The position numbers were made by a program, and so were the translations under genes. Positions 41,307-53,089 of a stretch of DNA of 64,000 nucleotides are shown in pieces (the stretch's first letter is position 1; each line of letters begins with the position of its first letter). The stretch is from a bacterium (lineage in GTDB: Bacteria; Verrucomicrobiota; Kiritimatiellia; CAIKKV01; CAIYGI01): positions 1 through 64,000 of the forward strand of contig JANYBP010000063.1 in NCBI GenBank assembly GCA_025360745.1, in the 5' to 3' direction. The notes beneath the pieces are model-generated. The model was given only the letters and a program-made list of their open reading frames with translations. It was not told the DNA's origin and searched no databases.

Positions 41307-42846
41307 TTATAAGTTGGGTGGAGCGGACATTCCCGCATTCAGCGTCACGGTAAGGGGCGCACCCAGCGCGCTTTCAAGGGCGATCAGGGCGAGCTCGCGT
41401 TGCCAGCGCAATCTCAATTCCAGGCGCAGCGATTCGACGACCTGCGCTTCCGTTGCCGCCAGCTCTTCAGGCATGACATTCGGGGTACGGCCGAGAATTT
41501 CCAGCGTGCGGCGCATTTCGGCGGCCAGCGGCGCAAGTTCCCGCTCGTAGCGCGACTGTTGCAGCAGGCTCTCGTCCAACTCGTCGAGGGCATCGCGGAT
41601 CTCGCAGGTTGCCCGGCTGATTCCTTCCGCCTCGTTTACGCCGGCCAGTTTGTACTGGGCCTGCAACACTTCGCCGACGTGATTTTTCACCAGGCTGAAA
41701 ATCGGGATATCGATTGTCAGTCCCACGCGCCATTCGTCCAGGTCGCTGGTGTCGGAGATCCACGATGGTTCGTCATACGCCCCGCCGGGAGTATCGACGC
41801 CCCAGGCATGGCGGCTGGACGCGCGATAATCGCCGGTGATTTCCTTGATCCAGGGCAGCCGCAGATTGCGCGCCTCGCGGAACGCGGAGCCGGCGGCCAG
41901 CATTCTCCAACGAAGGGCATCGAGATCGCCGCGATGCTGCAAAGCGGCCGCCCTGGCCTGCGCGAAGGAAATCGGCGGGGAAGGTAAGCGCGGGGCGCAG
42001 GCTGGCGCGTTCGTGGCGAGCTGAAGCGACATCACGGGCATATCGAGCAACGCCGCCAGACCGCGTTGCGCCAATTTGAAACGACGGCGGATTTGATCGA
42101 GGTCGTTCTGCCGCTGTAGCCGCCCTTGGACCGCGGAGACAACGTCAGAGGCCGTGGCGGCGTGCTGTTCGACACGCGCCTGGGCGGCCCTCAATATATC
42201 GCCATCGAGACACAGGAGTTTCCCGGCCAGCGCCAGGTCGTTCGTGAGATAGTCTAGTTTGGCGAACAACCGGCGCGCCTCGCATTCGACCAGCCAGCGG
42301 GCCGCGCGCTCGTCCGCCTGCGCGGCCCGGAGCTCAGCCTTTCTGGCGGAAACCCGCGGCGCCGTGAGCCATGGGTTCGGCACGAAAAAACGGGCGCCCA
42401 TCCGCCATGTGTCTCCCGTTTCCCGGGCGATTCCCGACCCCGTCTTCATTGCCTCCTGGCTGCCGGAGGGCGTGGCAAACTCCTCGCTCAGGGAATCCCC
42501 CGCGCGTTGGCCCCAGGCCACGTTCAGTTCAGGATCGGCGATGTCATAGGCCGAGCGGACGCGCGCCTTCGCCACCGTTACCGCGGTCCGGAGGGCGTCG
42601 AGTCGTCGGCTGCAAGCGATGGCGCGCTGGACAGCCCCCCCCTGCGGTCAGGGCGCCGGGAGACGGCGGCTGACTTGCAACGACTGGGGCTTCCACCGGT
42701 ACGTCACGGACGGGCGGCGGCGCATAATCCCGGGTCGCACAGCCTGAAAACACGACAACGGCGGCGATCAGGCGGCCCGGCGGGCACCGCCGGCGCGCGG
42801 CCTGGCGTCGATCGGGAATCCGCTCGCGGTGAACATGGTATGCCAT
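41307..42846 (-). pseudogene. TolC-family outer-membrane efflux lipoprotein, frameshifted at a G8 tract
   Basis: Lipoprotein start AAVVVFSGCATRDYAPPPV in ORF 42544..42846; body in ORF 41307..42575; a 1-nt deletion in the C8 run 42635-42642 gives GALTAGGAVQRAIACSRRLDALRTAVTVAKARV. Confidence 0.8.
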
Positions 42847-42854
42847 GGTGCGTC

Positions 42855-44146
42855 CTAGTAGCGAACCGTCCCGTTCGTTCGGGATTTTGGTTCCGCCGCC
42901 CGCGGGGCTTGCGAGTTATGGCCTGTGAGCATAGTCATCAGCCGGTCCAAACCGGCCCGCCATCCGGCATGAATCTGGCCGATCTCGACGGTTTTCCCGG
43001 GGCTGAAATCATGCGCGCCTTGAAGTTTGAAGAGAATCCTCCGGCCGCGAATCGGCTGGCCGCCCTGAACCTGGACTTGAAGCGGATTGATTCTGACCGG
43101 CAAGGCCTCGACGTTCGGGGATATCGATGACACCACGGCTGTCACGGCGGACTTTTGCCCGCCGGGCAGCAAAAGCGACGGCTCGTTCTGGCGCCAGACC
43201 AGGACTTCCTGTCCGGCCTTCAAATTAACCGGACGCACTTCAGGCAGGAAACCGATCACGTTCCGTGGTTTGTCATCCACGATATTCATGATCGGCGTTC
43301 CGGCGGCGACGATATTTCCGGGCCAGATCAGGATACGGGCCACCGTGCCGTCGAGGTTGGCGCGCAGCGCCCCGTTGTTCCTGCGCCGGATATAAGTTTC
43401 GCGGGTGGCTTCGATGATCGCGGCCGCCGATTGGGTTTTGTTGCTGATCGCCGCGGACAGATCCTCTCCCTCTCCCAGGCGGAGCCAGCTCTGCAAGGCG
43501 GACTGCTGTTTGATCGCGCTTTCCCTGGCCTGCCGGTAGGTTTCGATGATCTTCGGATAGGCGGTCACGGTCTGCTCCAGCGCGGCAATCTGCGGGCGCA
43601 GTTCATTCGCCCGCATTTCGTCGATCATGTGCGTGGCCAGGAGGGCTTCCCTAGGGCTTCCCTGCGCTTCTGCTCCCGGCGGAGTTCTTCCGCCTGGGCC
43701 TGATCGCTTTGCAGGCGCATTTGTTCGGTCTTCATCGCCGCATCCGCGGTTTTCACGGCCGCCTCGGCTTGATTGATGGCGGCCACCATGCCGCGCTGAA
43801 ATTGGGTGAAGGTCTCCCGCGCGTCCCGCAAGGTGGTGTCCTCCACGGCAATCTGGGCGTCGATCGGCGAGGTGTCCATTTGCGCCAGTAACTCGCCCGC
43901 CTTCACGCGCTGTCCCGCCGTAACGTTAATGGAGATCAGACGGGCGGTTTCCTGTGGCACGACCTGTTCTTCGACGACTTCGACGATTCCGGCCATGCGT
44001 CCGAACTGCTGATTCCGGGAGTAGAACGCGGCGATGAAAACGAGCACGGCCAGCCAGAGCACAAACGGCCAGTTCCGGATAATCCGCCGCCGCCAGAGGC
44101 GCGGATAATTGGTCATGCGCGGTTGTTCGTAGTGGTTATCGTTCAT
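42855..44146 (-). pseudogene. HlyD-family periplasmic adaptor, frameshifted by an 11-bp tandem duplication
   Basis: ORFs 43625..44146 and 42855..43628; deleting one AGGGCTTCCCT copy (43642-43652/43653-43663) restores EQKRREALLATHMIDEMRANEL. Confidence 0.85.
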
Positions 44147-44177
44147 ACGGCTGTATTGTCCTGTACATCGCGGCGGG

Positions 44178-44861
44178 CTACAATTCGACCGAGGTTCTAT
44201 GCAGCAGCAGGCTTGGCTCGGAGACGCCCTCGATGGTCCGTATTTTAGCGATCAGATCCGCATGATAGGACGGGTCGATCAGGCGTATCTGGTAGGAATA
44301 CTCCAGCAGTTCGCCTTGAACGGCCTCGCGCATGGCGATCAGATGGAACGCGGAACAATACTGACGCAGCGCCGCCTTGACGTCGTCCTCGGTGGCGGCC
44401 TTGGCCGGCAGCATGAAGCGCAACAGCCCTTCATACTCGCGGCGCGAGGCGAACGGCGACCAGTGCAGAACCAGCGCCGCCAGCGACAAGGTGACGGTGC
44501 CCACGATGGCCACATTGTAGGCGGCCGCCCCGCAGGCGATGCCCATCCCGAAACAGGCGAAGAGGAAAATCATGTCCCTGGGATCGCGAACCGGCGTGCG
44601 GAAACGAATGATCGCCAGGGTTCCCATGATGCCGAGGCCCCGGGCGAGGTTGTTTCCGATCGCCATGATGACCATGCAGACCACCATCGAGCCCAGCACC
44701 ATCGTATGCATGAACGCGCGCGAATAGGAAAACCCGATGAAGGTCCAGCGGTATATGGTGGCAAAGACAAAGGCCAGCGCGAAGGTCAGCAGCAGCGCGA
44801 ACACAATTTGTTCGGTGCTCAATGTGCGGGCCGATCCGAACAAGGTGGAAATCTGATCCAT
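44178..44861 (-). CDS. DUF4956 membrane protein
   Basis: NNLARGLGIMGTLAIIRFRTPVRDPRDMIFLFACFGMGIACG. Confidence 0.88.
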   Translation of the reverse strand: MDQISTLFGSARTLSTEQIVFALLLTFALAFVFATIYRWTFIGFSYSRAFMHTMVLGSMVVCMVIMAIGNNLARGLGIMGTLAIIRFRTPVRDPRDMIFLFACFGMGIACGAAAYNVAIVGTVTLSLAALVLHWSPFASRREYEGLLRFMLPAKAATEDDVKAALRQYCSAFHLIAMREAVQGELLEYSYQIRLIDPSYHADLIAKIRTIEGVSEPSLLLHRTSVEL

Positions 44862-44891
44862 TGTTTTGGGCTTCCTTCGATTACGCGGTTT

Positions 44892-45704
44892 TTACGGCTC
44901 GATCAAATCCCCGGCGGTGTAAGGCGCCAAGGCGGTCTGGTCAAAAACCGATTCCTGCCAGATCGCGCTGGAATATTTGCAGTTGCCGGTCTGTTCGAGG
45001 TTGAAATGAACGATCAAATCCATCATCCAATGCGGCGCATCGCTCAAGGTTTTGATCTCCATGACGATGCCGGAAAAACGATAATTCTTGTTTTGCGCAA
45101 AAGAGGAATCCATGACCAGCCAGCGTCCGCCCCGCCCCCAGGAAACCCAGGAAGTCGTGGGTTGATAGAGCAGCCGGCGGTCGAATGTGACGCGCGCATA
45201 TGGGTCGTTGGCGCCAAAATAGGATTCCCTGGTATAACGCACCAACAGCACCGGACGCGCCCCCGTTTCGCGCGCCAGGCGGACAAAGTCGAGAAAGCCG
45301 TTCTCCTCGCTTTTGGATTTGAAGGGCAGGTTCAGCCGTTTGTCGCGCAGCAAGTGCTCGCCCCAGGCATCGAAGGCGACTTTGACACGCGACTTGACGA
45401 TGGTTCGCGCAAACTTGCGTTTCACCTCGACGAAAACGGCGCTCTCGCCGGGTTCTCCATAGGTCCGCACGCGAAGTTTGAACCGGGCATTTGCTTCATT
45501 CGTTCTGGCATAGTGCAGGGCCAGGCCGGGGGTGTCCAACTGGAGTGTGGTGACAACGTATTCGGGCGGATATCCCTTCGTGTAGGGGTCTGGAATACAG
45601 AAGGGCCGGATGAATTCCCGGATTTTCGGGACCAGCGACGGGGGAATGATGTACTTCGACTCGTAACGATCCAGATGAATATCGTATGTGGAAGTCATTT
45701 CCAT
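44892..45704 (-). CDS. VTC (polyphosphate polymerase)-domain protein
   Basis: DRYESKYIIPPSLVPKIREFIRPFCIPDPY…VVTTLQLDTPGLALHYAR…FKLRVRTYGE…VFVEVKRKF…RKNYRFSG-type end. Confidence 0.88.
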   Translation of the reverse strand: MEMTSTYDIHLDRYESKYIIPPSLVPKIREFIRPFCIPDPYTKGYPPEYVVTTLQLDTPGLALHYARTNEANARFKLRVRTYGEPGESAVFVEVKRKFARTIVKSRVKVAFDAWGEHLLRDKRLNLPFKSKSEENGFLDFVRLARETGARPVLLVRYTRESYFGANDPYARVTFDRRLLYQPTTSWVSWGRGGRWLVMDSSFAQNKNYRFSGIVMEIKTLSDAPHWMMDLIVHFNLEQTGNCKYSSAIWQESVFDQTALAPYTAGDLIEP

Positions 45705-45782: not shown

Positions 45783-46544
45783 TTACGGGATGCGGCCGAG
45801 GAAGCGCAGCAAGCCGTCGAGGATGGTATAGGGGTGGGGCGGGCAACCCGGAACGAAAAGGTCCACGGGGATCGCGGCGGCGGCGCCGTTGTGGACTTCC
45901 GGATGGTCGCGGTAGGGGCCGCCGCCGATGGCGCAGGCGCCGGCGGCAATCACTACTTTTGGATTGGGCACGGCGTCGTAAGTCTTGCGCAAGGCCAGAC
46001 GCATGTTCTCCGTCACGGGGCCGGTGACGAGCAGTCCGTCGGCATGACGAGGCGAAGCCACGAATTGAATCCCGAAACGGCCCATGTCATAGGTCGGAAC
46101 GCCCAGCACGTTACTGTCGGCCTCGCAGGCGCCGCAGCCGCCGGCGCTAACCTGGCGCAGCCGCAACGAGCGTCCAAAGAGCCGGCGCAAGGAATCTTCC
46201 GCGGGCGCCGCACGGGGCTGCCGGCCGCCGGGGCTCAGGCGCAAATCCTCCAGGCGGCGCGCCGCCAGACGATGCTCGGCGGTGAATTTTACGACGGCCG
46301 GACAGGCGGCGGCGCAGGCGCCGCAGAACAGGCAGAGGCCGAGGTCGAGCGCGGGCGGCGCGCCGGCGGAGGCCGTGAAGGCGCCCGTCGGGCAGGCGGA
46401 GGCGGCGGGGACAAAATCGGCGGCGGGGGCGCCGGCCGTCAATTCCGGACAGCCGCGAAAACGCTCGGGCAGCGCCGGCGGCACGGCCGGATAGGCGGCG
46501 GTGCGGTAGCCCTGACGCCAGCGCGCTTTGATTATGCTCCACAT
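45783..46544 (-). CDS. Ferredoxin-NuoB/HyfI-like fusion, hydrogenase-4-like small subunit
   Basis: CLFCGACAAACP ferredoxin motif; GGCGACEADSNVLGVPTYDMGRFGIQFVASPRHADGLLVTGPVTENM…GACAIGGG…PGCPPHP. Confidence 0.85.
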   Translation of the reverse strand: MWSIIKARWRQGYRTAAYPAVPPALPERFRGCPELTAGAPAADFVPAASACPTGAFTASAGAPPALDLGLCLFCGACAAACPAVVKFTAEHRLAARRLEDLRLSPGGRQPRAAPAEDSLRRLFGRSLRLRQVSAGGCGACEADSNVLGVPTYDMGRFGIQFVASPRHADGLLVTGPVTENMRLALRKTYDAVPNPKVVIAAGACAIGGGPYRDHPEVHNGAAAAIPVDLFVPGCPPHPYTILDGLLRFLGRIP

Positions 46545-46557
46545 GATGTTCCCAGCC

Positions 46558-48069
46558 TCACAAATCGTGCCCGCAGTAGGACAGGTTGAAACTCTTGTTG
46601 CAGATCGGGAAGTCGGATATCTGCTGGCCGCGCATCGCGAAGGCCAGTCCAAACCAGTTGTGGAACGAGGGATCCACCAGCTTGTAGCAGGCGAAGCGTC
46701 CGTCCGCGCCGGTGATGGCGGCATGGCAAATCTCGCCGCGCCAGCCTTCGACCAGGGCGATGGCCAGACGCTCTGGCGCCAGCGTGCCGTCCGTCGGCAC
46801 GCGCCGGATCTCGCCATCCGGCAGCGCCGCCAGTTGTTCGCTCACAAAAATCAGCGACTGCTGAATTTCCATCCAGCGCACATAGGCGCGCGCGAAGACA
46901 TCGCCACTCTCCCAGGTGCAGACCGGCAGTTGCGCGAACTGGAAGATGCCGTAGGGGAAGTCGCGCCGCACATCGCGCGCCAGTCCGCAGGCGCGCGCGG
47001 CGACGCCCACCAGCCCCAGTTCGCGGCAGGTTTGCGCGCTCAGCGCGCCCGTGTCGTCGAAACGCGCCCGCGCGGTCGGCGACTCGAAGAGCAGTTGCAC
47101 GGCCGATGCCGTGTCGCGCCGCACCTCTTCCAGGCGGCTCAGCAGCCGTTCGACATCCCCGGCCGTGATGTCGCAGCCGCAGCCACCCGGCCGCACCAGC
47201 CCGCGCCCGAAGCGGTTGCCGCAGAGGATGGCGGTCAGGTTGAGCGCATCGCCGCGGATGCGGCCGCAGTACGACATCGTCGGCAGAAAGCCGACGTCGC
47301 CCGCCAGCGCGCCCAGATCGCCGATGTGGTTGGCGAGACGTTCGAGTTCCTGCGCCACGCCGCGCAGCGCCTGGCCCCGGGCCGGCACGCGGATCCGTCC
47401 CAGGGCCTCGCAGATGCGGCTGTAGGCCGTGGCATGGCCGATGCTGGTGTCGCCGGAGAGCGTTTCCATGTAGTGGATCGTGCGCGCAGCGGGACCGCCC
47501 AGCAATGCCCGTTCGACGCCGCGATGCTGGTAGCCGAGCGAGGTTTCGAGGTGGTAGACCGTCTCGCCATGGCACTGGAAGCGGAAGTGACCCGGTTCGA
47601 TCACGCCGGCGTGGACCGGGCCGACCGCCAGCTCGTGGATTTCAGCGCCGCTGATGGCGAAAAAAGGCGCCAGACCGATGGCGGGGCGCTCCGCAGCGGC
47701 GGGCGCGCCGCGCGGCGGCTGGAAGCGCAGCGGCTTCAGCCAGGGATGGCCCAACGGCCGGATGCCCCACACTTCGGCGATCTCGCGCTCGAAACCCTGC
47801 GCCTGCGGACAGTCGGGCGTGAGCGCGGCATATTCCCGCTCTACCGCGCAGCTTGTCACGGCGAGCACGCCCTGATCATCCAGCGCCAGCACGGCGATCA
47901 GCAAATGGCCCCGCGCGTCGCCGGGGCAGGCGAAAAAAGCCGAGAGCCGGGCGCCGCTTTTCGCGATCTCGTCCAGCACGGCGGCGCGGAAACGCTCCAG
48001 GCCCAGCCGCGGCAACTGCACCAGCGGCAGCACGCCGCCATTGGGCAACCTGGCGAAGTCGGCCGTCAT
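46558..48069 (-). CDS. Hydrogenase-4-like large subunit (HyfG/NuoCD-like), lacks NiFe-ligand cysteines
   Basis: HRGVERALLGG…METLSGDTSIGHATAYSRICEAL…FPICNKSFNLSYCGHDL. Confidence 0.85.
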   Translation of the reverse strand: MTADFARLPNGGVLPLVQLPRLGLERFRAAVLDEIAKSGARLSAFFACPGDARGHLLIAVLALDDQGVLAVTSCAVEREYAALTPDCPQAQGFEREIAEVWGIRPLGHPWLKPLRFQPPRGAPAAAERPAIGLAPFFAISGAEIHELAVGPVHAGVIEPGHFRFQCHGETVYHLETSLGYQHRGVERALLGGPAARTIHYMETLSGDTSIGHATAYSRICEALGRIRVPARGQALRGVAQELERLANHIGDLGALAGDVGFLPTMSYCGRIRGDALNLTAILCGNRFGRGLVRPGGCGCDITAGDVERLLSRLEEVRRDTASAVQLLFESPTARARFDDTGALSAQTCRELGLVGVAARACGLARDVRRDFPYGIFQFAQLPVCTWESGDVFARAYVRWMEIQQSLIFVSEQLAALPDGEIRRVPTDGTLAPERLAIALVEGWRGEICHAAITGADGRFACYKLVDPSFHNWFGLAFAMRGQQISDFPICNKSFNLSYCGHDL

Positions 48070-49547
48070 GGCGTCGCTCCCAGCACGGCGGCCGCCTGCG
48101 CGATCATCGCGCCGAGCGGACGGGGAATCCAGAGGCCCAGCAGCAGCAAGAGCGCCAGCGGCAACCATACCAGCAGCGCTTCGGCGCGATGGGTCGGCGG
48201 GGGCTTCGGCGCGGATTCAGGGACTTCCCAGGCCATCGGTATGGCTTTGCGCAGGACGCCGATGAAGACCAGGCCGAGTCCGAACAGCAGCAGCCCCATG
48301 GGCCAGTAGGCGGCCCGCTGCCAGGCCGCGCGCACGGTCAAAAATTCGCTGATAAACAACGCGAAGGGCGCCACGCCGATCAGCGCCATCAGGCCGGCCA
48401 GCAGTCCGCCGCCCCAGAGCGGCGAAACTTTCAGCATGCCCTTGATGCGGCGCATGTCCAGGCTGCCGTAGATCTGGCCGATCCTTCCGGCGCAGCAGAA
48501 CGACACGCTCTTGCAGAGCGAATTGTTGAGCGTATGCAGCAGCGCCGCATAGACGCCCAGGCCCCCGAGTCCGATGCCCAGCGTGATGATGCCCATATTT
48601 TCCACGCTGGAATAGGCCAGCAAACGCTTGATGTCCTGCTGACCGATTACGAACGCGGCTCCCACCAGCACCGAAAGCAGGCCCAGCGCCACCAGTACTT
48701 CCCGGCCCCAGCCGGTGTTGCCGGTGGCGCGTTCGACCAGCGGGATGTAGCGCAGGATGCCGTACATGGCGGTGGTCAGCAGGATTCCCGAAAACATCGC
48801 GGAGACGGGCGACGGCGACTGGCTGTGGGCGTCCGGCAGCCAACTGTGCAGCGGCGCCAGGCCGGCCTTGGCGCCGAAACCCACCACCAGAAAAATGAAG
48901 GCCACCTTGACCAGCATGGGATCGAGCGTCACCGCCGGATTCATCAGGCGCGTCCAGAGCAGCGCGTCATGTCCCGACAGCGAAGTGGAGGCGGTGGCGG
49001 CCAGCAACAGGATGCCGGCAAAGGCCAGGGCCACGCCCACGGAACACATCAACAGATACTTCCACATCGCCTCCAGGGCCTGCGGTGTGGCGTGGATGCA
49101 AATCAGGAAGGCGCTCAACAGCGTCGTGGCCTCGACGCCGACCCACATCACGCCCAGGTTGTTGCTGACCAGCACCAGGTTCATGGCCGCGAGCGAACCG
49201 AACCAGAGCGCCTGATAGCGGCGGGCCAGTTTGCGCGTGAAGAGGCCGGCGCCGATTTCCTCGCGGAAATAGACCATCGCGAAGCAGGAACAGAGCGCGA
49301 AGACCAGCATCAGAATGGCCAGGTGATAGGCCGAGAGCGCGTCCAGATAGAACCACCCGCCAGCGCACTGCAGCGGTCCGCACAGGAAAACCCGCGCCAC
49401 GGCGCCGCCCGCCGCCAGCGTCAGCGCCAGCGTGGCCGCGGCGCCGGTCCGCAGGGCCGCGCGCGGCGAGCGCGCCAGCAGGCTGAGCCCGGCCAGCAGC
49501 GCCGGCGCGGCCACCAGGGCCGGAAGAATCCATCCCGCGGTCATCAT
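48066..49547 (-). CDS. HyfF/NuoN-M-like proton-pumping membrane subunit
   Basis: GVEATTLLSAFLICIHATPQALEAMWKYLLMCSVGVALAF…GFGAKAGLAPLHSWLPDAHSQSPSPVSAMFSG. Confidence 0.9.
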   Translation of the reverse strand: MMTAGWILPALVAAPALLAGLSLLARSPRAALRTGAAATLALTLAAGGAVARVFLCGPLQCAGGWFYLDALSAYHLAILMLVFALCSCFAMVYFREEIGAGLFTRKLARRYQALWFGSLAAMNLVLVSNNLGVMWVGVEATTLLSAFLICIHATPQALEAMWKYLLMCSVGVALAFAGILLLAATASTSLSGHDALLWTRLMNPAVTLDPMLVKVAFIFLVVGFGAKAGLAPLHSWLPDAHSQSPSPVSAMFSGILLTTAMYGILRYIPLVERATGNTGWGREVLVALGLLSVLVGAAFVIGQQDIKRLLAYSSVENMGIITLGIGLGGLGVYAALLHTLNNSLCKSVSFCCAGRIGQIYGSLDMRRIKGMLKVSPLWGGGLLAGLMALIGVAPFALFISEFLTVRAAWQRAAYWPMGLLLFGLGLVFIGVLRKAIPMAWEVPESAPKPPPTHRAEALLVWLPLALLLLLGLWIPRPLGAMIAQAAAVLGATP

Positions 49548-49551
49548 CGCC

Positions 49552-50190
49552 TTATCCCTTCAAAAGCGTCAATTGGTCGGAGTCGATATGATCGAACGTC
49601 CGGTTGATCCGGTAAATCGCGATGCCCATCACGAACACGGCCACGAAAACATCCATCAGCACGCCCAGTTCGACCAGGGCGGGAATTTCGCGGACCACGC
49701 CGAAGCCGAAGGTGTAGATGCCGTTCTCCATCACCAGATAACCGAGCACCTGGTTGACGGCGGTCTTGCGGGCGACGATCAGAAAAAGTCCCGCGATCAG
49801 CAGCGCGAAGGCCACCGGCGCCACCAGGCGCGAGGCCACATGCGACAGCGCAGGCAGACAGGAATCGGCCCAGAAGGAAAGCCCCAGGATCACGACCCCG
49901 ACCAGCAGCGAGGCGACATAACCCACGAAGGGCTGCACCTCGTGGCTGGTGTTGGATTCGCGCAACGCCCGCGAAAGCAGCCAGGGGAAGGCCAGTCCCT
50001 TGAGCACGATCACGGCCAGACTGATGGCGGCCACGCGGATGCTGAGCCCGCCGCCGACCACCCCGAGCAACCCGGTGGCCACGCCCTGAATCGCGCAGAT
50101 GCGGATGCAGGAGGCCAGGCGGCTCGATCCGAGCAGCCAGAAGGTTGTCAGGATCAGGACGACCAGCATGATGTCGGTCCAGGCGTTCAT
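49552..50190 (-). CDS. HyfE-like membrane subunit
   Basis: Multi-TM; KTAVNQVLGYLVMENGIYTFGF; position between HyfC- and HyfF-like genes. Confidence 0.85.
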   Translation of the reverse strand: MNAWTDIMLVVLILTTFWLLGSSRLASCIRICAIQGVATGLLGVVGGGLSIRVAAISLAVIVLKGLAFPWLLSRALRESNTSHEVQPFVGYVASLLVGVVILGLSFWADSCLPALSHVASRLVAPVAFALLIAGLFLIVARKTAVNQVLGYLVMENGIYTFGFGVVREIPALVELGVLMDVFVAVFVMGIAIYRINRTFDHIDSDQLTLLKG

Positions 50191-51107
50191 AGCGCGTACC
50201 TCAGCATCAGGACGAAGCCCAGAACCGACATGGCCGCCGCGCCGACCAGAAGCTGTGGCACCTTGAGCAGGCTCAGGCGCGCCATCACCGATTCGATTAC
50301 GCCGGTCACCACCGCGACCACGAAGATGCCGGCCACCAGGCAGGCGATCTGCAGCGGTCCGGAGCGCCCGCTCAGCGGCAGGAAGATGTTCGCCAGCAGC
50401 GCGCCCAGCAGCCAGAGTTTCAAAGATGCGCCGTAAAGGATGAAAGCCAGATCGGGCCCGCTGTAATCGAGGATCATGACCTCGTGGATCATGGTCAGTT
50501 CCAGGTGCGTGTTGGGATCGTCAACCGGGATGCGGGAGTTTTCGGCCAGAAACACGATCAGCAGGGCCGCCGCCACCAGCACCAGCGCCGGACCGACCTG
50601 CAGCCAATCGGGACGGGTCACGCCGCCGAAAATACCCGAGAGCGAGAACGAACCCGTCGCATAGGCCAGCGCGGCCAGTCCCAGAATCAGCGCCGGCTCG
50701 GTCAGCGCGGAAAACTGGACTTCGCGGCTGGCGCCCATGCCCTCGAAACTCGAACCCGTGTCGAGCGCGGCGCAGACGGTCATGAAGCGCATCAGCCCCA
50801 GCAAATAGGCCAGCAGAATCAGGTCGCCGGGAAAAGCCAGCGGCGCGGCATAATCCCCCGCGGGCACGAGCAGCAGCGCGGCGATCACGCAGGCCAGGCC
50901 GCCCGCCGGCGCCAGGCGGAAAACCCAGCTTGTGGTCCGGCTGTAAACGGCGCCCTTGCGCAGAAGCTTGGCCAGATCGTAGTAGGTCTGCAGCAGCGGC
51001 TGGCCATGGCGTCCGGCGAAAACCGCCTTGGTCCGGTTGACGATGCCCGGCAGCAGGGGCGCCAGCAGCAGGCCGAGCGCCGCATAACTGAAGTTCCAGA
51101 CGCTCAT
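50187..51107 (-). CDS. HyfC/NuoH-like membrane subunit
   Basis: LLPGIVNRTKAVFAGRHGQPLLQTYYDLAKLLRKGAVYS…SREVQFSALTEPALILGL…HLELTMIHEVMILDYSGPDLA. Confidence 0.92.
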   Translation of the reverse strand: MSVWNFSYAALGLLLAPLLPGIVNRTKAVFAGRHGQPLLQTYYDLAKLLRKGAVYSRTTSWVFRLAPAGGLACVIAALLLVPAGDYAAPLAFPGDLILLAYLLGLMRFMTVCAALDTGSSFEGMGASREVQFSALTEPALILGLAALAYATGSFSLSGIFGGVTRPDWLQVGPALVLVAAALLIVFLAENSRIPVDDPNTHLELTMIHEVMILDYSGPDLAFILYGASLKLWLLGALLANIFLPLSGRSGPLQIACLVAGIFVVAVVTGVIESVMARLSLLKVPQLLVGAAAMSVLGFVLMLRYAL

Positions 51108-53089
51108 GGCCTGCCCAGCTTCCAGGTCAGCAGCGCCAGCAGCGTCAGCACGATGTAGAGAATGTACAGGTTCAGCCGCCCGTGCTGGATCCATTGGAAT
51201 TTCGCCATAGCCCGTTCGATCGCGATGAAGGCCGGCTTGTAGATGCGTTCGCGGCTCATGTCCGGCGTTTCGGTCGAATGCGAGGCGCGGTCGGGGAAGA
51301 AACCGCGCGGTCCCGCGAACTTGCGGCGGATGCCCAGCAGCGGACCGAAGAAGCGGGTTAGCGGATCGGAGAACGAGGAGGCCGTGTATTGCATGCGCGG
51401 CGTCGGCGCGATATAGCCGCAATCCCAGGTGCCGGCCGCGGTCGTCATGCGCCGGGCGGGCAGCATGGCGCGAAGGGCGATCAGAAGGCAGAAGAGCGCC
51501 AGCAGTCCCACGCCGGCGCACGCCACGACCGCCAGGGGCAGGGCGGCGGCGCCCGTCCAATCGCCCAGATCGGTCGCGCCCGCCAGTTGCTTGACCACCG
51601 GCTTGAGCACGCCGATCGCGAAGGGCGCCGTCACGCCGATTGCCAGGCAGAGCGCCGCCAGCAGAATCTGCGGGGCGCGCATGCCGGGCCCCGCCTCATG
51701 GGCATGCTCCGCCTGGCTGGAACGCGCTTCGCCCAAAAAGATCGTTCCGAAGGCCTTGGTAAAGCAGGCCGCGGCCAGGCCGCCGATCAGCGCCAGGCTG
51801 ACGATGGCCGCCAGCGCCGCCAGCACGACCGGAATGCCGGCGGCGCCGAGCAACCCGAAGGCCGCGAAGTAGATCAGAAACTCGCTGACGAATCCGTTGA
51901 ACGGCGGCAGGCCGCTGATCGCGGCCGCGCCCGCCATAAAGGTTGCGCCGGTGGACGGCATGGATTTCAAAAGGCCGCCGAGCTGGTCAAGTTCGCGGCT
52001 GCCGGTGGCATGCAGCACCGAGCCGGCCCCCATGAAGAGCAGGCTTTTGAAGATCGCGTGGTTGACCACGTGCAGCAGTGCGCCGGCCAGCCCCAGCGCC
52101 GCCGGCAGCGGATGGTGGCTGCCCAGTCCGATCAGGCCGATGCCCAGTCCGATCGCGATCACGCCGACATTTTCCACGCTGCAGTAGGCCAGCAGGCGTT
52201 TCAAATCGTGCTGGGCGAGCGCGAACAAAATGCCCAGCACGCCGGAAACGACGCCGATGCCCACCAGCAGATAGCCCCACCAGAGCGGTGGCGGACCGAG
52301 CCAGAGCAGCGTGCGCAGCAGGCCGTAGATGCCGGTCTTGATCATGACGCCGCTCATCACGGCCGAGACGTGCGACGGCGCCGCCGGATGCGCCTCCGGC
52401 AGCCAGACATGCAGCGGCATGAAACCGGCCTTGGTTCCGAAGCCGACCACCGCCAGCACGAAGGCCAGACTGGCCAGCGCCGGCGTGCCGGCGATTTGGC
52501 CGAAGCCGTCGAAGTCCAGCGATCCCGTGGGCCGGCCCAGCAGGACGAACAGCACCAGCAGGAAGGCGGCGCCGATGTGCGTGGCCACCAGATAGGTCCA
52601 GCCGGCGCGGCGAACCTCTGGTTTCTCGCCCTCGAACATCACCAGAAAGAACGACGAGAGCGACATCGCCTCCCACGCCAGCAGGAAGAGCACGCCGTTG
52701 CGCGCCAGCACCACCAGCAGCATGCTGGCGGACAGCAGATTGAACATGCACCACGATACCCCCAACGCCTTGCGGCCTTCGTAAGGGCGCAGGTATTCGC
52801 GTCCATAGATGGCGGCCAGGGCGCAGATCGAAACGATCGGCAGCGTGAAAAAGGCCGAGATGGCATCCATGCCGATGACGAAGTTGGCGCCGGGCAGGGA
52901 CCACGGCAGTTGCAGGGCGCCGGTCGATCCGCAAAAGAGCGCGCACCCGGCGGCGAAAAGCGCGGGTAGACTGCCCAGCACGGCGCCCGCGGGGCCGATC
53001 GCCTGGACCAGCCGCGGACGTTTGGAGAAGGCCAGACAAAGCGCGCCCGTCGCCAGCCAGATGGCCAGAGCCGTAATGATTAGCGTCAC
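51104..53089 (-). CDS. HyfB/NuoL-like membrane subunit
   Basis: LLAWEAMSLSSFFLVMFEGEKPEVRRAGWTYLVATHIG…GFGTKAGFMPLHVWLPEAHPAAPSHVSAVMSGVMIKTGIYGLLR. Confidence 0.92.
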   Translation of the reverse strand: MTLIITALAIWLATGALCLAFSKRPRLVQAIGPAGAVLGSLPALFAAGCALFCGSTGALQLPWSLPGANFVIGMDAISAFFTLPIVSICALAAIYGREYLRPYEGRKALGVSWCMFNLLSASMLLVVLARNGVLFLLAWEAMSLSSFFLVMFEGEKPEVRRAGWTYLVATHIGAAFLLVLFVLLGRPTGSLDFDGFGQIAGTPALASLAFVLAVVGFGTKAGFMPLHVWLPEAHPAAPSHVSAVMSGVMIKTGIYGLLRTLLWLGPPPLWWGYLLVGIGVVSGVLGILFALAQHDLKRLLAYCSVENVGVIAIGLGIGLIGLGSHHPLPAALGLAGALLHVVNHAIFKSLLFMGAGSVLHATGSRELDQLGGLLKSMPSTGATFMAGAAAISGLPPFNGFVSEFLIYFAAFGLLGAAGIPVVLAALAAIVSLALIGGLAAACFTKAFGTIFLGEARSSQAEHAHEAGPGMRAPQILLAALCLAIGVTAPFAIGVLKPVVKQLAGATDLGDWTGAAALPLAVVACAGVGLLALFCLLIALRAMLPARRMTTAAGTWDCGYIAPTPRMQYTASSFSDPLTRFFGPLLGIRRKFAGPRGFFPDRASHSTETPDMSRERIYKPAFIAIERAMAKFQWIQHGRLNLYILYIVLTLLALLTWKLGRP

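Follow-up and report, generated by a model that had tools for sequence, protein, structure and literature searches.

Bacterial VTC proteins are widespread, and we found no tested role for any of them in the literature searched. What might such a protein do in an operon that also encodes both an adaptor and an outer-membrane component of a trans-envelope conduit? The question is raised by the window, by which we mean the whole stretch of DNA that was analysed, 64,000 nucleotides from a bacterium of the Kiritimatiellia. A first-pass annotation described four same-strand genes here, in the order VTC, DUF4956, HlyD and TolC. The order holds, and all four lie on the minus strand from 45704 to 41307, but the HlyD and TolC genes are each divided between two open reading frames (ORFs), breaks that the annotation overlooked. 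The features are as follows.

44892 to 45704, minus strand: VTC-domain protein, 270 aa, soluble, polyphosphate-polymerase-like, intact (PF09359, 109.9 bits)
44178 to 44861, minus strand: DUF4956 membrane protein of 227 aa, intact, with a predicted MgtC-like topology and C-terminal ACT-like domain (PF16316, 50.1 bits)
43625 to 44146, minus strand: HlyD-type adaptor, N-terminal piece with the membrane anchor and first hairpin arm (RND_mfp, EmrA and HlyD profiles; residues 11-173 of the adaptor of relative L048)
43642 to 43663, minus strand: exact 11-bp tandem duplication marking the break in the HlyD frame (Tandem Repeats Finder)
42855 to 43628, minus strand: HlyD-type adaptor, C-terminal piece in a different frame (PF13437, 36.8 bits; residues 178-382 of the L048 adaptor)
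42544 to 42846, minus strand: 5' piece of the TolC-type gene, including a lipobox-like FSGC with its Cys (ORF and sequence)
42635 to 42642, minus strand: run of eight G with the TolC frame change nearby, the sole G/C run of at least eight in the 64-kb window
41307 to 42575, minus strand: TolC-type outer-membrane efflux protein, main piece (PF02321, 38 bits; residues 113-521 of the L048 TolC-type protein)

The four-gene linkage recurs widely. A VTC close to that of the window (46-66% identity) is encoded in 16 of 58 relatives, the window's genome included, with DUF4956 and HlyD downstream in most. A single-sequence search of genome contigs with the window VTC gave no match. An alignment search succeeded, and in GTDB genomes this profile retrieved 245 related stretches, the best 80 of which were examined by title. 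Almost all of these 80 are titled Kiritimatiellota, Lentisphaerota or Verrucomicrobiota, some only "bacterium" and one Treponema; the cultured Pontiella sulfatireligans is among them. We then counted linkage over 85 non-redundant loci, scoring HlyD and TolC at the loci with room for them (79 and 72, respectively). DUF4956 adjoins VTC in 84 of the 85, HlyD comes next in 75 of 79, and a strict HMM recognises a TolC-type gene after it in at least 53 of 72. At some TolC-negative loci the place is taken by a divergent protein of suitable size, and one locus (L057) has the same four genes in a different order. The gene order is far beyond chance and is found again in nearly all relatives examined, a recurrence that rules out chance neighbours. 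Dozens of genomes in Kiritimatiellota and Verrucomicrobiota share this conserved unit. The four-gene operon is also present on a contig titled Treponema sp. (L077), where the VTC is 53% identical to the window's; this is probably a mis-binned Kiritimatiellota contig and otherwise a case of lateral transfer.

No ABC, RND or MFS motor gene is recurrent at the 85 loci, in agreement with the initial impression of a conduit without an ABC or RND motor. Type I secretion places an ABC transporter gene with the adaptor; ABC-signature ORFs occur at two of the 85 loci, neither in a recurrent cluster. The only other recurrent family that does not resemble local synteny consists of giant proteins with CotH-kinase and lamin-tail domains, found at 21 loci.

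The window VTC scores far above the curated threshold of PF09359 (cut-off 23), and the VTC profile matches yeast Vtc4. The tunnel and catalytic residues expected of a VTC-like polymerase, as the first-pass annotation had called it, are present: the window protein has equivalents of Vtc4 K200, R264, R266, K281, K294, Y359, R361, R373, E426 and K428, and these alignment columns are invariant across 74 homologues, down to 24% identity. Polymerase-typical basic residues (R13, K104/R106 and K218) are retained as well. In a fold search with the predicted structure (pLDDT 90.8), the 13 top PDB hits are all VTC proteins, Vtc4 best of all, and other tunnel enzymes rank behind them. Only the VTC domain is found in the 270 residues, which contain no SPX domain, no VTC1-type transmembrane helices and no other membrane segment. 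At the position of Vtc4 T198, the window protein has a glutamate (E15), as do 74 of 74 homologues. Acidic residues or patches at such tunnel positions are typical of hydrolytic tunnel enzymes (PMC4641920). The protein is a putative polyphosphate polymerase. It would not be the genome's only polyphosphate synthase, an idea ruled out by the presence of PPK1, independent of VTC, in 46 of the 58 relatives including G000. Because PPK1 also occurs in 13 of the 16 operon-bearing genomes, the VTC product would probably form a pool of its own that is exported.

The second gene product exceeds the curated threshold of PF16316 (cut-off 30.6). An AF2 model of this DUF4956 protein (pLDDT 78) shows membrane helices and, at the C terminus, an ACT-like domain. 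A fold search of the model against the PDB returned ACT domains and the MgtC C-terminal domain (2lqj, E 3e-3), and a sequence-profile search against the PDB returned nothing useful. By this model, the protein may share with MgtC/SapB proteins the arrangement of membrane helices followed by an ACT-like domain; its sequence similarity to them is weak (18.8 bits against PF02308). It differs from them in falling below the family cut-off of 31.4, in its linkage to VTC and in a conserved arginine-rich stretch (R74, R86, R88, R92 and R95) within or beside the membrane part, which could be a polyanion-handling feature.

The first-pass annotation tied polymer synthesis to VTC and missed that DUF4956 also tracks with the conduit. 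In a DUF4956 tree of 64 rows, the HlyD-linked members cluster, requiring 2 changes compared with 10.4 in shuffles; the tree has some long branches, its Hymenobacter row is unsure, and L027 and L056 are labelled as conduit members by clade, HlyD not adjoining. A long branch lies between the HlyD-linked cluster and most CotH-adjacent members. On a plasmid of Hymenobacter volaticus (L128, 6739-9979), HlyD-like, DUF4956 and TolC genes stand in a row with no VTC beside them. Judged by this single example, DUF4956 may serve the HlyD/TolC conduit as its inner-membrane partner. We tested whether the two genes upstream of DUF4956 on this plasmid encode a divergent VTC and rejected the idea; one of them is the HlyD-like gene. 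The product of the gene after this row carries a sorting tail of type IX secretion. On pSymA of Sinorhizobium meliloti (L129, 6239-8609), a DUF4956-like ORF seen by eye comes right after a caspase-like (metacaspase) ORF, with no adjoining VTC.

VTC and DUF4956 also occur together in other architectures. A VTC-DUF4956-CotH set without a conduit has been reported among Pel-linked accessory genes of monoderms (PMC7112168) and in the NELoc-2 locus of the monoderm C. perfringens (PMC2879425). We find the same set, again without a conduit, in monoderm plasmid records from Planococcus, Pseudobutyrivibrio and Nonomuraea; Paenibacillus and Acetoanaerobium have VTC-DUF4956 with no CotH among the scanned neighbours. 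Within the phylum of the window, a divergent class has VTC-DUF4956-CotH and no adjoining conduit (L135, L136, L139, L141 and L044-L046). In a second divergent VTC class (L040, L041 and L142-L144), HlyD adjoins DUF4956 to give VTC-DUF4956-HlyD. Going by these architectures, the conduit is an optional extra, present in two VTC classes.

The operon resembles the monoderm sets in that VTC and DUF4956 are adjacent, on one strand and tied to CotH kinase proteins. It differs from them in having a trans-envelope conduit in the operon, and in that its CotH domain usually belongs to a separate giant protein bearing lamin-tail domains. The absence of HlyD/TolC in monoderms fits, since they have no outer membrane to cross. 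The best reading is that the operon is the diderm version of the monoderm VTC-DUF4956-CotH set. The eukaryotic VTC complex (Vtc4/Vtc3/Vtc1) has the same tunnel domain and catalytic residues, and its coupling to a membrane partner is what we propose here; the bacterial protein, however, has neither SPX nor membrane helices of its own, its partner is the unrelated-looking DUF4956, and the proposed direction is out of the cell. With type I secretion and EmrAB/RND tripartite efflux the operon shares a HlyD-type adaptor and a TolC-type outer-membrane protein, whereas a recurrent ABC, MFS or RND pump gene is missing and DUF4956 stands in the pump's place. The unit is a widely conserved variant of a known bacterial gene set. 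We found no description of it in the open-licence literature searched on DUF4956, on VTC together with CotH or HlyD, and on polyphosphate in connection with CotH or, outside the cell, with TolC.

CotH acts as a protein kinase, and its association with the operon extends beyond adjacent genes. Of the 16 genomes carrying the close VTC type, 15 encode CotH, compared with 10 of the 42 other relatives (Fisher P = 1.4e-6) and 3 of the 34 relatives that match neither VTC nor DUF4956 (P = 5e-9 against 15 of 16). In a sample of 145 genomes of the phylum, which overlaps the 58 relatives, CotH was found in 15 of the 17 that carry VTC and in 14 of the remaining 128 (P = 9e-11); the genomes span many families, and all of these statistics ignore shared ancestry. 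The exceptions are the window's genome in both samples and, in the phylum sample, G023, which has only a distant VTC. All 15 genomes with CotH and the operon also encode lamin-tail domains, with 4 to 70 matches apiece. In Pontiella sulfatireligans, the last codons of a CotH-lamin-tail giant overlap the VTC start. The first-pass annotation had remarked that VTC and DUF4956 often accompany CotH, but it missed the tie to the CotH/lamin-tail giants, which holds in the operon-bearing genomes generally and fails in the window's own, where no CotH was found. Several giants start with ordinary hydrophobic signal-like N-termini, judged by eye to be like those of Sec substrates. One genome (G042, the source of L025) has 14 CotH and 70 lamin-tail matches and a single VTC match; from these counts, many giants may share one exporter.

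In yeast, polyphosphate is synthesised by VTC in the cytosol, and the chain is moved across a membrane while it grows (PMC4641920). By analogy with this coupling of synthesis to translocation, we propose an export model for the operon. Working at the inner face of the inner membrane, soluble VTC would use nucleotide triphosphate to build a chain of the polyphosphate type. The chain would pass through DUF4956, acting as a channel or anchor, and the HlyD adaptor and TolC outer-membrane lipoprotein would carry it over the periplasm and outer membrane. Chain growth would give the push and so replace an ABC or RND motor. The operon's association with secreted CotH-domain proteins points to use of the product outside the cell, where it would most likely serve the CotH-kinase/lamin-tail giants as a phosphate donor or ligand. 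That the conserved operon is a trans-envelope synthase and exporter of such a chain has, in our judgement, close to an even chance of being right. We regard as unlikely the full version, in which polyphosphate synthesis alone drives the polymer through a motorless DUF4956/HlyD/TolC exporter and feeds surface CotH-type kinases that phosphorylate the lamin-tail giants. The first-pass annotation had suggested an export route for a VTC-made polymer or another substrate; of the two results that it had named as refuting, a lack of recurrence and missing VTC catalytic residues, neither was obtained, and no motor gene recurs, while polymer export is still something that we infer.

Several observations weigh against the export model, among them the glutamate at the T198 position, reminiscent of hydrolytic tunnel enzymes, the PPK1 found in most of these genomes, and the divergent diderm loci at which VTC-DUF4956-CotH has no adjoining HlyD/TolC (L135, L136 and L044-L046). 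HlyD/TolC could also work with a pump whose gene lies elsewhere. Pairs of this kind typically transport proteins or small molecules, and the adaptor resembles EmrA, HlyD and RND types in Pfam and NCBIfam. The conduit might therefore export some other substrate (a protein, peptide, glycan or lipid), with VTC and DUF4956 modifying, energising or regulating the process. The CotH-lamin-tail giants encoded beside the operon at about 20 of the 85 loci speak for this, but the Sec-like N-termini of several giants, the lack of a recurrent motor gene and the position of DUF4956 at the inner-membrane pump's place in Hymenobacter make this reading doubtful. The invariant glutamate and the hydrolytic nature of other tunnel enzymes with acidic patches would instead fit a non-polymerase VTC, for example a short-chain polyphosphatase or an enzyme that transfers nucleotidyl or phosphate groups; it would regulate an MgtC-like protein in the membrane, and the conduit would work separately. 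Given the retained basic residues and the precedence of VTC proteins over other tunnel enzymes among the nearest folds, we consider this improbable.

The window's own copy of the operon differs from most in its conduit genes. HlyD and TolC are unbroken in most relatives. In the window, a frameshift at the tandem duplication splits HlyD into two ORFs that align to one intact adaptor of L048, and a frameshift near the run of eight G splits TolC, whose main piece aligns to residues 113-521 of the intact L048 protein. The window's genome, which is 93.6% complete, contains no CotH and no lamin-tail protein, and the one congener examined is without VTC, DUF4956 and CotH. Together, the two frameshifts, the missing CotH/lamin-tail proteins and the congener suggest that this copy is probably degenerate and decaying. 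It is also quite possible, if short of an even chance, that the frameshifts are errors made in sequencing or assembly, or reflect phase variation at the G run, and that the operon is functional. Both breaks lie at classic slippage sites, VTC and DUF4956 are intact, split genes occur in a few other assemblies of the set (L061, L064 and L091), and a CotH/lamin-tail gene may lie within the missing 6% of the genome. Against this, two independent breaks affect adjacent genes in the sole operon-bearing genome of the relatives sample that lacks both CotH and lamin-tail proteins, and the congener has none of VTC, DUF4956 and CotH.

Next to the operon, positions 45783-53089 of the window (minus strand) encode HyfB, HyfF, NuoD-, NuoB- and NuoH-like subunits of a membrane-bound complex, a relative of hydrogenase-4/formate hydrogenlyase and of complex I. 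Since the paired cysteine motifs of NiFe hydrogenases are seemingly absent, by eye, from the large-subunit ORF (46558-48168), this may be a hydrogenase-related, non-hydrogenase complex of the Ehr type.

The locus offers a concrete, testable proposal, in which a polymerase is wired to a two-membrane conduit and tied to secreted kinase-domain proteins, and Pontiella sulfatireligans provides a cultured host in which to test it. If the proposal is true, polyphosphate would join the polymers that are synthesised and exported in one step, and the operon would be a possible source of phosphate outside the cell for secreted kinases.
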